Part shown: positions 2,649 through 57,205 of the stretch, piece after piece | Layout of the letters: each line of letters opens with the position of its first letter | Numbering within the stretch: position 1 is the first letter of the stretch | From: Jiangella gansuensis DSM 44835 | GTDB taxonomy: Bacteria > Actinomycetota > Actinomycetes > Jiangellales > Jiangellaceae | Direction of reading: 5' to 3' | Assembly: GCF_000515395.1 (NCBI RefSeq) | Contig: NZ_KI911782.1 | Span: 5,300,070-5,364,069, forward strand | Length of the DNA stretch: 64,000 bases | Notes under the pieces: generated by a model | What the model was told of the DNA's origin: nothing | Databases searched by the model: none | Seen by the model: the letters and a program-made list of their open reading frames with translations, nothing else | Made by a program: the position numbers and the translations under genes

Positions 2649-3628
2649 GGTGCCTCCTCGGTGTCGGGTCGGGCGGGCGCGAGATATCCGGCCGCGCCTG
2701 CTGCGGCGTCGGCGAACCGGGGGCGGAACCCGAGCTCGTCGCGGATGCGCCGGTCGTCCATGGCCGGCAGGTCCGGCGCGCCGTCGGTGACGTCGGTGAC
2801 CTGCGCGGTGATGCCGGCCGTCGTGCCGGCTGACGCCGCGGCGATCAGGGCGCGGGCCAGGTCGGCGAGGCTGCCGCGGTGGCCGACGACGTTGTAGAGC
2901 TCGCGCCCGGGTTCGACGGTGACGCCGGCGAGCAGCGAGGCCGCGGCGTCGTCGACGTGGATCCAGTCGGCGGCGCCGGTCCAGGCGTCGATCCGGGCGT
3001 CGCGGCCGGCGGCGAGGTCGCCGACGAACCGGACCAGCGACTCCTGGCTGCCGCCGTACCAGCGGCCCGGCCCGTACACCAGCGGCAGCCGGATGCCGAC
3101 GACGCACAGGTCACGCTGGGCGCGGAGGACCCGCGCCAGCTGTTCCGCGCCGACCTTCGTGGCGCCGTAGACGGAGTCCGGGTGGGTGGCGGCGTCCTCG
3201 TCGACCAGGCCGCGGCCGCCGTCGGGACCGTAGACGGTGCTGCTGCTGGACCAGCAGATCCGCCGGATCCCGCGGTCCGCCGCCGCCTCGATCACGTGTG
3301 CCAGGCCGCGGACGTTGACGTCGACGGCGCGGGCCGGGTTCTGGGTGGCACCAGCGGCCAGGCCCGCATCGCCGGCACCGTAGGCGGCAAGGTGGACGAC
3401 GGCGTCGGGGCGGACGTCGTCGAACACGGCGCCGACGGCGTCGGGGTCGGTGACGTCCAGCGCGACCCGGCGGGCACCGGGTGTGCCCGGCAGGCCGGCC
3501 GCGGCGTCGCCTGCGGTCTCGGCGTCGTGTCCGGTGACGGCGACGGCCCAGCCGGCCGCCTGGGCGGCTCGCGACACCGCGGCGCCGATGAACCCGGTGC
3601 CTCCGACGACGAGCAGCGCGCGGCTCAT
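2645..3628 (-). CDS. NAD-dependent epimerase/dehydratase (extended SDR)
   Basis: A 327-residue extended short-chain dehydrogenase. The NAD-binding motif GGTGFIG lies at residues 9-15, the catalytic serine region is WSSSSTVYG, and the active-site Tyr154-x3-Lys158 pair occurs in SVYGATKVG. Such proteins oxidise, epimerise or dehydrate sugars or sugar derivatives with bound NAD. Near relatives are often labelled UDP-glucose 4-epimerase or uronate dehydrogenase, but the specificity cannot be read here. In this operon a role as a sugar-acid or sugar-alcohol dehydrogenase acting before the enolase-superfamily dehydratase is the likeliest guess. It overlaps both neighbours by 4 nt (ATGA upstream, GTGA downstream). 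Confidence 0.85.
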   Translation of the reverse strand: MSRALLVVGGTGFIGAAVSRAAQAAGWAVAVTGHDAETAGDAAAGLPGTPGARRVALDVTDPDAVGAVFDDVRPDAVVHLAAYGAGDAGLAAGATQNPARAVDVNVRGLAHVIEAAADRGIRRICWSSSSTVYGPDGGRGLVDEDAATHPDSVYGATKVGAEQLARVLRAQRDLCVVGIRLPLVYGPGRWYGGSQESLVRFVGDLAAGRDARIDAWTGAADWIHVDDAAASLLAGVTVEPGRELYNVVGHRGSLADLARALIAAASAGTTAGITAQVTDVTDGAPDLPAMDDRRIRDELGFRPRFADAAAGAAGYLAPARPDTEEAP

Positions 3629-4773
3629 CGGTCCGCCCGCAACCGGTCGAGGGCGGCCTCGTCGATCTCGATGCCCAGCCCCGGGCCGTCCGGCACGGTG
3701 ACCACGCCGCCGTCGAACGTGAACGGGCGCACCGCCAGCTCGTCGCGCAGCGCGTTGCGGCCGCGGTCGTACTCCAGCCACAGCGGCTCCGCGGCATGGT
3801 CGACGTGCGGATAGTCCGGTACCGAGGCCAGGAGCTGCACCGACGCCGCCTGCGCGACCACTCCGCCCCACACGTGCGGCGAGAACCGCACGTTCCACGT
3901 CTGCGCCAGGTGCGCGATGACCCGCGCCTCCCCCAGCCCGCCGCACTTGGACACGTCCGGCTGCACGACGTCGACGACCCGGCCGGCGATCAGGTCGCGG
4001 AACCCGTACCGGGTGTAGACGGCCTCGCCGGCGGCCAGCGGGACGCCGCACTCGCGCAGTAACGCCCAGCCGCTGCGGTCGTCCGGCGGTACCGGCTCCT
4101 CGATCCAGCCCGGCGCGAACTCGGCCAGCCGGGCGATGGACCGGCGCGCCTGGTCGGCGGTGTAGTTGCCGTTGAAGTCCAGCAGGATCGTGGTGTCCGG
4201 GCCGAGGATCTCGCGCGCGGCCCGGGTGCGGGCGACGTCGCTCTCGAACCCGAGCCCGAGCTTGATCTTCACGCCCCGGTAGCCGTCCGCGGCCAGCTCG
4301 CGCAACCCGTCGGCGAACCGGCCGGCGTCGTTGTCGTGGGTGATGTACCCGGCCGACGCGTACGGCGTCAGGTGGTCGCGGGTCCGGCCGCCCAGGAGCA
4401 GGTGCACCGGCACGTCGAGGGTGCGGCCCAGCGCATCCCACATCGCGATGTCGATGGCCCCGGCGGCCGCGACGTGGTGGCCGCCGCTGGTGTGGTGATA
4501 GCGCTGGTTCAGCAGGCGGGTGAACCAGCTCCCGGACGGCTCCAGCCGCTGCCCGGTCAGCTCGGCGGCGATCTCCCCCACCAGCACCGCCGTCGCGCGG
4601 GATGCGCCCCACGCCTCGCCCCAGCCGACCACGCCGTCGGCGGTCTCCAGCCGGACCAGGGTGGCTGCCCTGGCCCGCACCAGCCCGCGGGACGAGCCAT
4701 AGACGTCGGCGGGGGCGAGCACGTCGTGGACCGGGATCGCCTCGATCCGCGCGATGCTCGGGCTGCCGCTCAT
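3625..4773 (-). CDS. Mandelate racemase/muconate lactonizing enzyme family protein
   Basis: A 382-residue enolase-superfamily enzyme with the N-terminal capping domain and the C-terminal barrel. Visible catalytic elements are the K-x-K pair (Lys169 and Lys171), metal ligands Asp199, Glu225 or Glu226 and Glu250, the Asp273/Lys276 region (QPDVSKCGG) and His300 in RFSPHVWGG. The Lys plus Asp-His arrangement is that of the mandelate racemase/sugar-acid dehydratase group, which removes a proton alpha to a carboxylate and usually expels water to give a 2-keto-3-deoxy acid. Beside a TRAP importer and a ThDP enzyme, an acid sugar dehydratase is the best inference; the actual substrate is not determined. 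Confidence 0.9.
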   Translation of the reverse strand: MSGSPSIARIEAIPVHDVLAPADVYGSSRGLVRARAATLVRLETADGVVGWGEAWGASRATAVLVGEIAAELTGQRLEPSGSWFTRLLNQRYHHTSGGHHVAAAGAIDIAMWDALGRTLDVPVHLLLGGRTRDHLTPYASAGYITHDNDAGRFADGLRELAADGYRGVKIKLGLGFESDVARTRAAREILGPDTTILLDFNGNYTADQARRSIARLAEFAPGWIEEPVPPDDRSGWALLRECGVPLAAGEAVYTRYGFRDLIAGRVVDVVQPDVSKCGGLGEARVIAHLAQTWNVRFSPHVWGGVVAQAASVQLLASVPDYPHVDHAAEPLWLEYDRGRNALRDELAVRPFTFDGGVVTVPDGPGLGIEIDEAALDRLRADR

Positions 4774-54658: not shown

Positions 54659-55663
54659 TCAGAGTGTGCTCAGCCAGGCCCAGACGATGCGGCCGGCGCG
54701 GTCCAGCTGGGCCGGGTCGACGACGGCGGGCACGTCGCCGGGCGAGTGGTAGCCGTCGTACGGGATGCTGCCGAGCCGCGCCGACGGGAGGTCCACCTTC
54801 TCGAACGACCAGTGGTCGCTGGCGCGGTTCTCACAGGTCTGCACCGGGACGTCGACCGTGCCGGCGGCGGCGACGAGGGCGTCGCGCAACGCGGTGGTGC
54901 CGCGGCCGCCGGTGCACACCGGCACGTGATCGGCGGGCACGCCGACGCGGTCCAGCGACACCATGCCGGCCAGCGCGGCCGCCTGCGCCGCCGGCAGCTC
55001 GCGCACATAGTGCTGGGAGCCGAAGTGGTGAAGGTCGTCGCCCTCGCCCCGGGGTTCCTCGGCGCCGAACGCGATGAACCGCACCGGAACGCCGGGCGGT
55101 TGCGCGGCTGCCAGCCGGGCGAGTTCGAGGACGACGGCGACGCCGGAGGCGTTGTCCTCGGCGCCGGGCGCCTGCGGGACGGTGTCGAGGTGCGCACCGA
55201 CGACGACGTGCGGCTGCGCCGGGTCGAACCCGGGTGAGTCGGCGATGACGTTGGTGGACGTCCCGGCATCGACCGGCACGCCCCAGGAGTTCCCGGCCGG
55301 CACCTCGAACGGGTCGGTGCTCACCTGATAGCCCAGGGCGGTGAACCGGTCGACGACGAAGCTCGCGGCCTGGTGGAACGCGGGCGACGTGCCCTCCCGC
55401 GGGCCGATGCTGCCGGCCAGGTGCTCGATGTCGGCCAACGCGGCGGCCGGATCGAACACGGCCGGCGTGGGGGTGGGCGTGGGACTCGGGGTCGGCGTCG
55501 CGGTGGCCGTCGGCGTCTCAGGTGCCGGCGACGACGCGGACGGCGGGTCCGCCGGAGCCGAGGTCTGCGTGCCGGACTCGCCGTCGGACCCGCCGCACGC
55601 GGACGCCGTCAGGGCGGCGGCTGCGGCGACCGCCACGGGCCACCGGGAGGGGTACCTGGCCAC
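54659..55663 (-). CDS. M28 family metallopeptidase (exported)
   Basis: A 334-residue zinc aminopeptidase. The N-terminal signal has a lipobox-like TASACGG, followed by a Thr/Pro-rich linker (TPTPSPTPTPTP). Zinc ligands are in VVVGAHLDTVPQAPGAEDNASGVA (His, Asp) and FIAFGAEEPRG (Glu-Glu), with further ligands in DRVGVP and the His in PYDGYHSPGD near the C-terminus. It would remove N-terminal amino acids outside the cell. The start is a GTG with TACCAT 5 nt upstream. It lies 17 bp after the aminotransferase gene on the same strand, but a shared transcript is not certain. Confidence 0.9.
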   Translation of the reverse strand: MARYPSRWPVAVAAAAALTASACGGSDGESGTQTSAPADPPSASSPAPETPTATATPTPSPTPTPTPAVFDPAAALADIEHLAGSIGPREGTSPAFHQAASFVVDRFTALGYQVSTDPFEVPAGNSWGVPVDAGTSTNVIADSPGFDPAQPHVVVGAHLDTVPQAPGAEDNASGVAVVLELARLAAAQPPGVPVRFIAFGAEEPRGEGDDLHHFGSQHYVRELPAAQAAALAGMVSLDRVGVPADHVPVCTGGRGTTALRDALVAAAGTVDVPVQTCENRASDHWSFEKVDLPSARLGSIPYDGYHSPGDVPAVVDPAQLDRAGRIVWAWLSTL

Positions 55664-57018: not shown

Positions 57019-57061
57019 AGAGCACTCCTCGCTGGTCGAGGGGCCCGATGCCGGGCCCGCG

Positions 57062-57169
57062 CTTGCCGCCTCAGGACCGAGGGCGGCCGGGTCGTCACCC
57101 GGGGCACCCCACCGCGGAGGAGGGTTGCCGGCCAGCTAGCCGGGGCTTGACGCTGGCGCTCATGACCTT
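57062..57169 (-). ncRNA. SAM-IV-type riboswitch
   Basis: On the minus strand from 57169 the sequence begins AGGTCATGAGCGCCAGCG, then AGCCCCGGCTAGCTGGCCGG, CAACCCTCC, CGCGGTGGGGTGCCCCGGGTG and ACGACC. This is the order and wording of the actinobacterial SAM-IV aptamer, where GGTC pairs with GACC. A 3' hairpin GCCGCC/GGCGGC and then GGGCCCG/CGGGCCC (57038-57057) lie just before the GAGGAG ribosome binding site, offering an expression platform that could act on translation. Confidence 0.85.
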
Positions 57170-57176
57170 GGCGGTG

Positions 57177-57205
57177 AGCATAACCGCCCTCGGACGATCA
57201 GTCCA
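57177..57205 (-). promoter_or_regulatory. Promoter of the riboswitch-aminotransferase unit
   Basis: On the minus strand TATGCT (57182-57177) is preceded by a 17-bp spacer and TGGACT, resembling TTGACA. Seven nucleotides downstream lies the 5' end of the SAM-IV aptamer, so transcription would begin exactly at the riboswitch. Confidence 0.65.

Follow-up and report, generated by a model that had tools for sequence, protein, structure and literature searches.

A SAM-IV riboswitch precedes a SufS-like cysteine desulfurase paralogue in Jiangella gansuensis

In a 64,000-nucleotide stretch of the Jiangella gansuensis DSM 44835 genome (hereafter the window), the gene of a class V PLP enzyme is preceded by a SAM-IV riboswitch, of which it is almost certainly the target. 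We have good confidence that the enzyme, a SufS-like cysteine desulfurase paralogue, is regulated by this ordinary SAM-IV in response to S-adenosylmethionine (SAM), and it is very likely that SAM turns the enzyme gene off. The pairing of riboswitch and enzyme is real and widespread and is in print for Streptomyces; Jiangella adds a further example. The features of the locus, all of which lie on the minus strand, are collected in Table 1.

Table 1. Features of the riboswitch-enzyme locus, in positions of the window.
Feature	Position	Strand	Evidence
-35-like TGGACT	57200..57205	-	Sequence; family pattern
-10-like TATGCT, ending 9 nt 5' of the aptamer	57177..57182	-	Sequence; family pattern
SAM-IV riboswitch aptamer (RF00634)	57054..57167	-	Covariance match, 106.8 bits, E 1.1e-18, full length
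CCGCG, P3 loop, PK-2 5' strand	57113..57117	-	Complementarity to 57057-57061; PK-2 topology per PMC6890682
CGCGG, PK-2 3' strand; final GG shared with the start of the next hairpin	57057..57061	-	Sequence; PMC6890682 topology
Hairpin GGGCCCG-GCAU-CGGGCCC, 7 bp, overlapping PK-2 by GG, candidate anti-sequestor	57041..57058	-	Sequence; leader comparison
CCUCG-ACCAG-CGAGG, candidate sequestor over GAGG of the ribosome-binding site	57027..57041	-	Sequence and folding; putative
GAGGAG Shine-Dalgarno, 6 nt before the GTG start (57018-57016)	57025..57030	-	Sequence
Class V PLP enzyme, SufS-like cysteine desulfurase paralogue, 445 aa	55681..57018	-	Pfam PF00266 (Aminotran_5) E 5.5e-83; SufS model 289 bits; catalytic residues
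M28 peptidase, 17 nt 3' of the enzyme gene	54659..55663	-	Pfam PF04389 E 1e-32

A complete SAM-IV aptamer behind a promoter-like element

The first-pass annotation, made from the letters of the window, had read this region as an actinobacterial SAM-IV aptamer. The covariance search bore this out: the Rfam SAM-IV model (RF00634) was matched over its full length (positions 1-116 of 116), well above the cut-off (compare 106.8 with 38 bits). In the covariance alignment one pair of P5 is broken by a one-base deletion, and the PK-1 region is near the RF00634 consensus. The model itself leaves the pseudoknot unscored; PK-2 was therefore looked at by sequence, and its two strands, CCGCG and CGCGG, are complementary. 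At the gathering score, a search of the window with all of Rfam returned three matches, two tRNAs and the SAM-IV, and the latter is present in a single copy in the 5.586-Mb single-contig genome. The element is an ordinary actinobacterial SAM-IV, predicted from its sequence to sense SAM. That it might be a SAM-I was rejected, the sole SAM-I match of the genome being elsewhere, at a threonine-synthase-like ORF.

On the minus strand 5' of the aptamer, TGGACT is followed by a 17-nt spacer and TATGCT. The latter had been placed 7 nt upstream of the aptamer, with the transcript starting at the aptamer edge; the hexamer is there, at a distance of 9 nt and not 7, and since a transcript would start 6-7 nt further on, its predicted start still falls near the aptamer edge. 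A pair of this shape, searched with a loose pattern run without a chance control, ends 9-11 nt 5' of the aptamer in all 15 loci of the family; its first element reads TGGAC (14 loci) or TAGAC (one locus), and TANNNT follows in 15 of 15.

The target gene encodes an additional SufS-like protein

The class V PLP gene, which the first-pass annotation had also named, begins 35 nt 3' of the aptamer, and its product matches Aminotran_5 (Table 1). The wording "cysteine desulfurase-like" is supported at the family level, the activity itself being predicted: the protein scores 289 bits on the SufS model (TIGR01979), below the curated cut-off of 475.1, and has the Cys, Lys and His-His motif. Cys388, Lys246 and His148-His149 are invariant across all 133 aligned rows (132 matches plus the window protein, which is itself also among the matches), and in an alignment their positions coincide with those of solved desulfurases (chains 9ddd_A and 8odq_B). 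We take K246 to be the PLP lysine, C388 the catalytic cysteine and H148-H149 the His motif of desulfurases. The literature searches brought up no assay of the enzyme.

The housekeeping SufS is found elsewhere in the genome, where a gene passes the SufS cut-off with 575.2 bits and sits, as judged by eye, among SufB-, SufD-, SufC- and SufU-like ORFs. The window enzyme is thus an extra paralogue, and its identification as the true SufS was rejected on its score and on the existence of this other gene. NCBIfam includes a model for EgtE, the ergothioneine enzyme; no EgtE model was among the NCBIfam matches of the window protein at E 0.001, and this identity was rejected as well. Among the matches listed, the nearest named relatives are proteins of three Jiangella species (76-77% identity). 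The divergent neighbour of the locus is tex.

Riboswitch and enzyme occur together across genomes

We looked at the 22 genomes of the family. Fifteen of them contain a SAM-IV, one each, and in all 15 it lies directly before the enzyme gene on the same strand (70-77% identity, the window's own copy set aside). In the seven others, two of which are only 75% and 81% complete, the best enzyme match reaches just 35-39% identity, the level to be expected of other desulfurases. Riboswitch and enzyme are thus present or absent together in the family (15 both, 7 neither). One SAM-IV-free genome of the same genus has a 45-residue piece (G008:C69:10144-10278) that is 51% identical to the enzyme and carries two stops; the piece is perhaps the remnant of a lost enzyme gene.

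The same tie was found further afield. With a sequence profile derived from 103 aptamers, a SAM-IV-like element was detected 5' of the enzyme in 79 of the best 80 of 560 relatives, chosen by protein similarity and including three from Jiangella. The exception is L081 (Leifsonia), whose enzyme has no SAM-IV in 4 kb. An Rfam run on nine of the 80 agreed with the profile, with SAM-IV in eight and none in L081. The 80 relatives and the 103 SAM-IV loci described below partly overlap (L016 and L013, for example, are one contig). The link between SAM-IV and the class V gene, first proposed for the window, therefore holds in 15 of 15 family loci and in 79 of the best 80 relatives.

SAM-IV elsewhere points to methionine synthesis

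A sample of 393 genomes of the class gave SAM-IV in 261. From these matches 103 loci were assembled, namely the 15 of the family, the 28 top-scoring ones and 60 picked by hand for variety among the matches listed, so that the shares given here are those of a non-random sample. An enzyme homologue stands next to SAM-IV in 54 of the 103 loci (outside the family, in 39 of 88, including one partial match, L165). Outside the family, 87 first ORFs were sampled; 41 match models of metY (O-acetylhomoserine sulfhydrylase), and three metX-like and one metK-like ORFs were recognized by eye. At least eight sampled genomes, judged by first residues, have one SAM-IV upstream of this enzyme and another upstream of a metY- or metX-like gene (G023, G280, G168, G312, G186, G265, G304, G176). 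That SAM-IV elsewhere mostly precedes metY-like genes or this enzyme, and besides them metX- and metK-like genes, points to homocysteine/methionine synthesis, and the genomes with both arrangements are the best functional clue, a hint that the enzyme belongs to the homocysteine/methionine regulon. In the window genome, metY and metX are adjacent at 2.964-2.967 Mb (metX scoring 433.7, below its cut-off of 500), and the metY locus (L195) gave no Rfam match at the gathering score.

On this basis we tentatively propose, at somewhat under even odds, that the enzyme supplies sulfur for homocysteine: it would take sulfur from cysteine as a persulfide and pass it to homocysteine/methionine synthesis, in which case repression by SAM would be end-product control. 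A desulfurase working for another product (Fe-S clusters, tRNA thiolation or thiamine) and merely tuned by SAM is less probable, if the strongest of the alternatives. It would suit the SufS-like sequence and catalytic residues, and the S. lividans SAM-IV gene is listed under thiamine metabolism in the available part of PMC8079986; against it stand the proper SufS already present among Suf-like genes and the company that SAM-IV otherwise keeps in the sample, that is metY-, metX- and metK-like genes.

Two SAM-I elements were seen in the course of these searches. The one of the window genome (G000:C1:5037847-5037972; L193 3848-3973, minus strand) overlaps the 5' end of the threonine-synthase-like ORF in its longest reading. 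In Cellulomonas cellasea (L039), a SAM-I (3593-3693, minus strand) and a SAM-IV (3811-3926, plus strand) lie back to back.

A hairpin in the leader shares two nucleotides with PK-2

A GGGCCC hairpin just before the ribosome-binding site had been described from the letters of the window, and the repeat is indeed present at 57058-57041. It overlaps PK-2 by the GG that ends the CGCGG strand. As the GG cannot serve PK-2 and the complete hairpin at once, SAM might tip the balance towards one of them.

We compared this region in other leaders of the enzyme. The 133 enzyme matches gave 131 leaders (123 distinct), of which 105 were kept after removal of duplicates, of leaders whose start lay beyond 100 nt (all seven Streptomyces, together with L035, L050 and L167, whose automatic start is apparently wrong), of ribosome-binding sites shorter than 4 nt and, by hand, of L063, L092 and L163. 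An unbroken helix of at least 5 bp from the PK-2 GG to a strand 5' of the ribosome-binding site was found in 100 of the 105, compared with a mean of 36.6 and a maximum of 43 in 20 shuffled linker sets; here as in the comparisons below, the shuffles preserve base composition and not dinucleotides. The helix is also present in 28 of 31 non-redundant enzyme leaders, and in the metY-like leaders a hairpin of at least 6 bp starts from the PK-2 GG in 24 of 36 (shuffle mean 4.75, maximum 9). Pairs 3, 4, 5, 7 and 8 of the hairpin each vary among several standard types, which may reflect covariation, the longest helix having been picked leader by leader.

The consequence for the ribosome-binding site was then computed by blocking CGCGG in silico. 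Over the 105 leaders the mean accessibility of the site went from 0.373 to 0.285 (63 down, 13 up, 29 unchanged), whereas among shuffled linkers 32% went down and 28% up. With the 31 non-redundant leaders the mean change was -0.082 (19 down, 3 up) against a shuffle mean of -0.015, and none of 100 shuffle sets was as low. In the window leader, blocking the PK-2 strand lowered the accessibility from 0.45 to 0.23. The ten Jiangella leaders are mixed: besides the window (-0.22), two fall (-0.08 and -0.16), three rise (+0.17, +0.18 and +0.21) and four are about unmoved. When 55 nt of the window leader were folded, 12 coding bases included, the unconstrained minimum-energy structure already covered the ribosome-binding site. 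The GGGCCC hairpin has the lowest energy only if the folded RNA stops by the start codon, and with PK-2 formed it loses only its two outer pairs. A direct pairing of the site with the 3' strand of the hairpin was unsupported, the helix being no longer than with swapped sites (compare 4.46 with 4.58).

That SAM acts by hiding the ribosome-binding site is the mechanism we somewhat favour, and the direction of the switch and its last step to the site, with the mixed behaviour within Jiangella, are put forward as possible. In this scheme SAM would stabilise PK-2, and the shared GG, held there, would be unavailable for the two closing pairs of the hairpin. The C bases so freed may then form a longer second hairpin over GAGG of the ribosome-binding site, and translation would fall when SAM is plentiful.

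A riboswitch that ends transcription, in which the GC-rich hairpin after the aptamer would be a terminator acting alone or with Rho and the loss of translation would be secondary, appears unlikely for the window, where neither hairpin is followed by a U-run. Moreover, a hairpin that overlaps PK-2 would be favoured without SAM, which is the wrong direction for methionine genes. Other leaders speak more in favour of termination: by eye, CCUUUU follows the PK-2-overlapping hairpin in some Arthrobacter-type leaders, and a GC-rich stretch and, farther 3', a U-rich run are seen in several Streptomyces leaders. In Streptomyces clavuligerus, the available part of PMC8269248 describes a premature SAM-IV transcription unit before the class V PLP enzyme gene CRV15_21540, and transcription may thus be the controlled step there.

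A six-codon ORF in the Streptomyces leaders

Streptomyces-type loci carry a short ORF between SAM-IV and the enzyme, RTG-AGC-AAG-CGA-ATG-CGN-TAG (MSKRMR), 17-59 nt after the aptamer in 19 of 19 loci (L109, L114, L116, L121, L122, L126, L127 and L199-L210, of which L122 and L199 are one place). In several of them a GC-rich, terminator-like stretch was seen by eye after the ORF. An exact search for this pattern gave a single match in each of 30 of the 41 genomes of the genus Streptomyces and none in the control. When three mismatches were allowed, ten of the other 11 genomes had a match, but the control matched as often; by eye, several of these matches, located by sequence and not by distance to SAM-IV, end in CGAATGCGNTAG. 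A literature search for MSKRMR found no paper. Streptomyces and Jiangella thus differ in their leaders: in the loci of the former that were examined, the six-codon ORF and some 180-260 nt separate the PK-2 strand from the enzyme start, whereas in the latter the enzyme start follows immediately.

A joint scheme may be drawn from these leaders, although we regard it as unlikely when taken as a whole. SAM-IVs would share a platform in which the PK-2 GG opens a hairpin whose closing CC may instead engage the ribosome-binding site, a two-nucleotide hand-over that reads out SAM binding. Jiangella would gate the enzyme itself and Streptomyces the six-codon MSKRMR ORF, coupled to a terminator, and the enzyme would be a dedicated, SAM-repressed sulfur donor for homocysteine.

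The M28 peptidase gene is not a general partner

The first-pass annotation correctly noted an M28 peptidase gene after the class V gene (Table 1), with which it is probably co-transcribed in the window, and had suggested from it a salvage of sulfur from peptides. The M28 gene is not a generally conserved partner of the enzyme. Among the three Jiangella relatives, all with long flanks, it follows closely in one (L016, about 16 nt after the enzyme as in the window, in a search without the low-complexity filter), lies about 1.6-2 kb from the enzyme in the second (L017) and went undetected in the third (L018); it was found in two of the 80 relatives' loci (E 1e-8, 4-kb flanks). A SAM-controlled operon of enzyme and M28 peptidase for peptide-sulfur salvage, which the 17-nt and 16-nt spacings would suit, is therefore very improbable given its near absence from the 80 loci, 36 of which have a methyltransferase-like ORF.

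The latter ORF, named by eye, is on the enzyme's strand and nearly always downstream (for example L021 5511-6290). In another genus of the family (L003), an M28 relative is encoded on the upstream side of the riboswitch.

Comparison with known systems

The closest precedents are from Streptomyces, as given in the available parts of the papers. In S. lividans TK24 a SAM-IV lies before SLIV_26975, a "cysteine desulfurase", and a SAM-I before threonine biosynthesis (PMC8079986). The window has the same aptamer family with the same kind of target gene, and its genome apparently shares the SAM-I at a threonine gene. For S. clavuligerus (PMC8269248) the linkage is alike; the transcript end has been mapped there, while the Jiangella locus is known from sequence alone. 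Given these two precedents, the arrangement of SAM-IV and desulfurase was already known and Jiangella is a further member.

Other SAM-IVs share the class and differ in the target, as in Mycobacterium avium, where the riboswitch precedes an O-acetylhomoserine sulfhydrylase gene (PMC3774663, in part). In C. glutamicum a SAM-IV lies before cg1478 (PMC3890552, in part). The accessible portions of PMC3766115 and PMC6746716 contain nothing on the class V enzyme gene. The aptamer of a Mycobacterium sp. SAM-IV has been solved by cryo-EM as a 119-nt RNA and, in the part of that report available, shows no large change upon SAM binding (PMC6890682), which counts against the switch proposed here. We liken the aptamer of the window to it through the family model, which is matched over its full length, and through the complementary PK-2 strands. 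The 119-nt RNA is the aptamer alone, and the platform considered here lies outside it.

The locus offers a clear-cut and conserved case from a family that has received little study, and it names a candidate platform shared by SAM-IV riboswitches. For an uncharacterised enzyme it provides a prediction, that of a SAM-controlled desulfurase paralogue which would most likely serve methionine synthesis.
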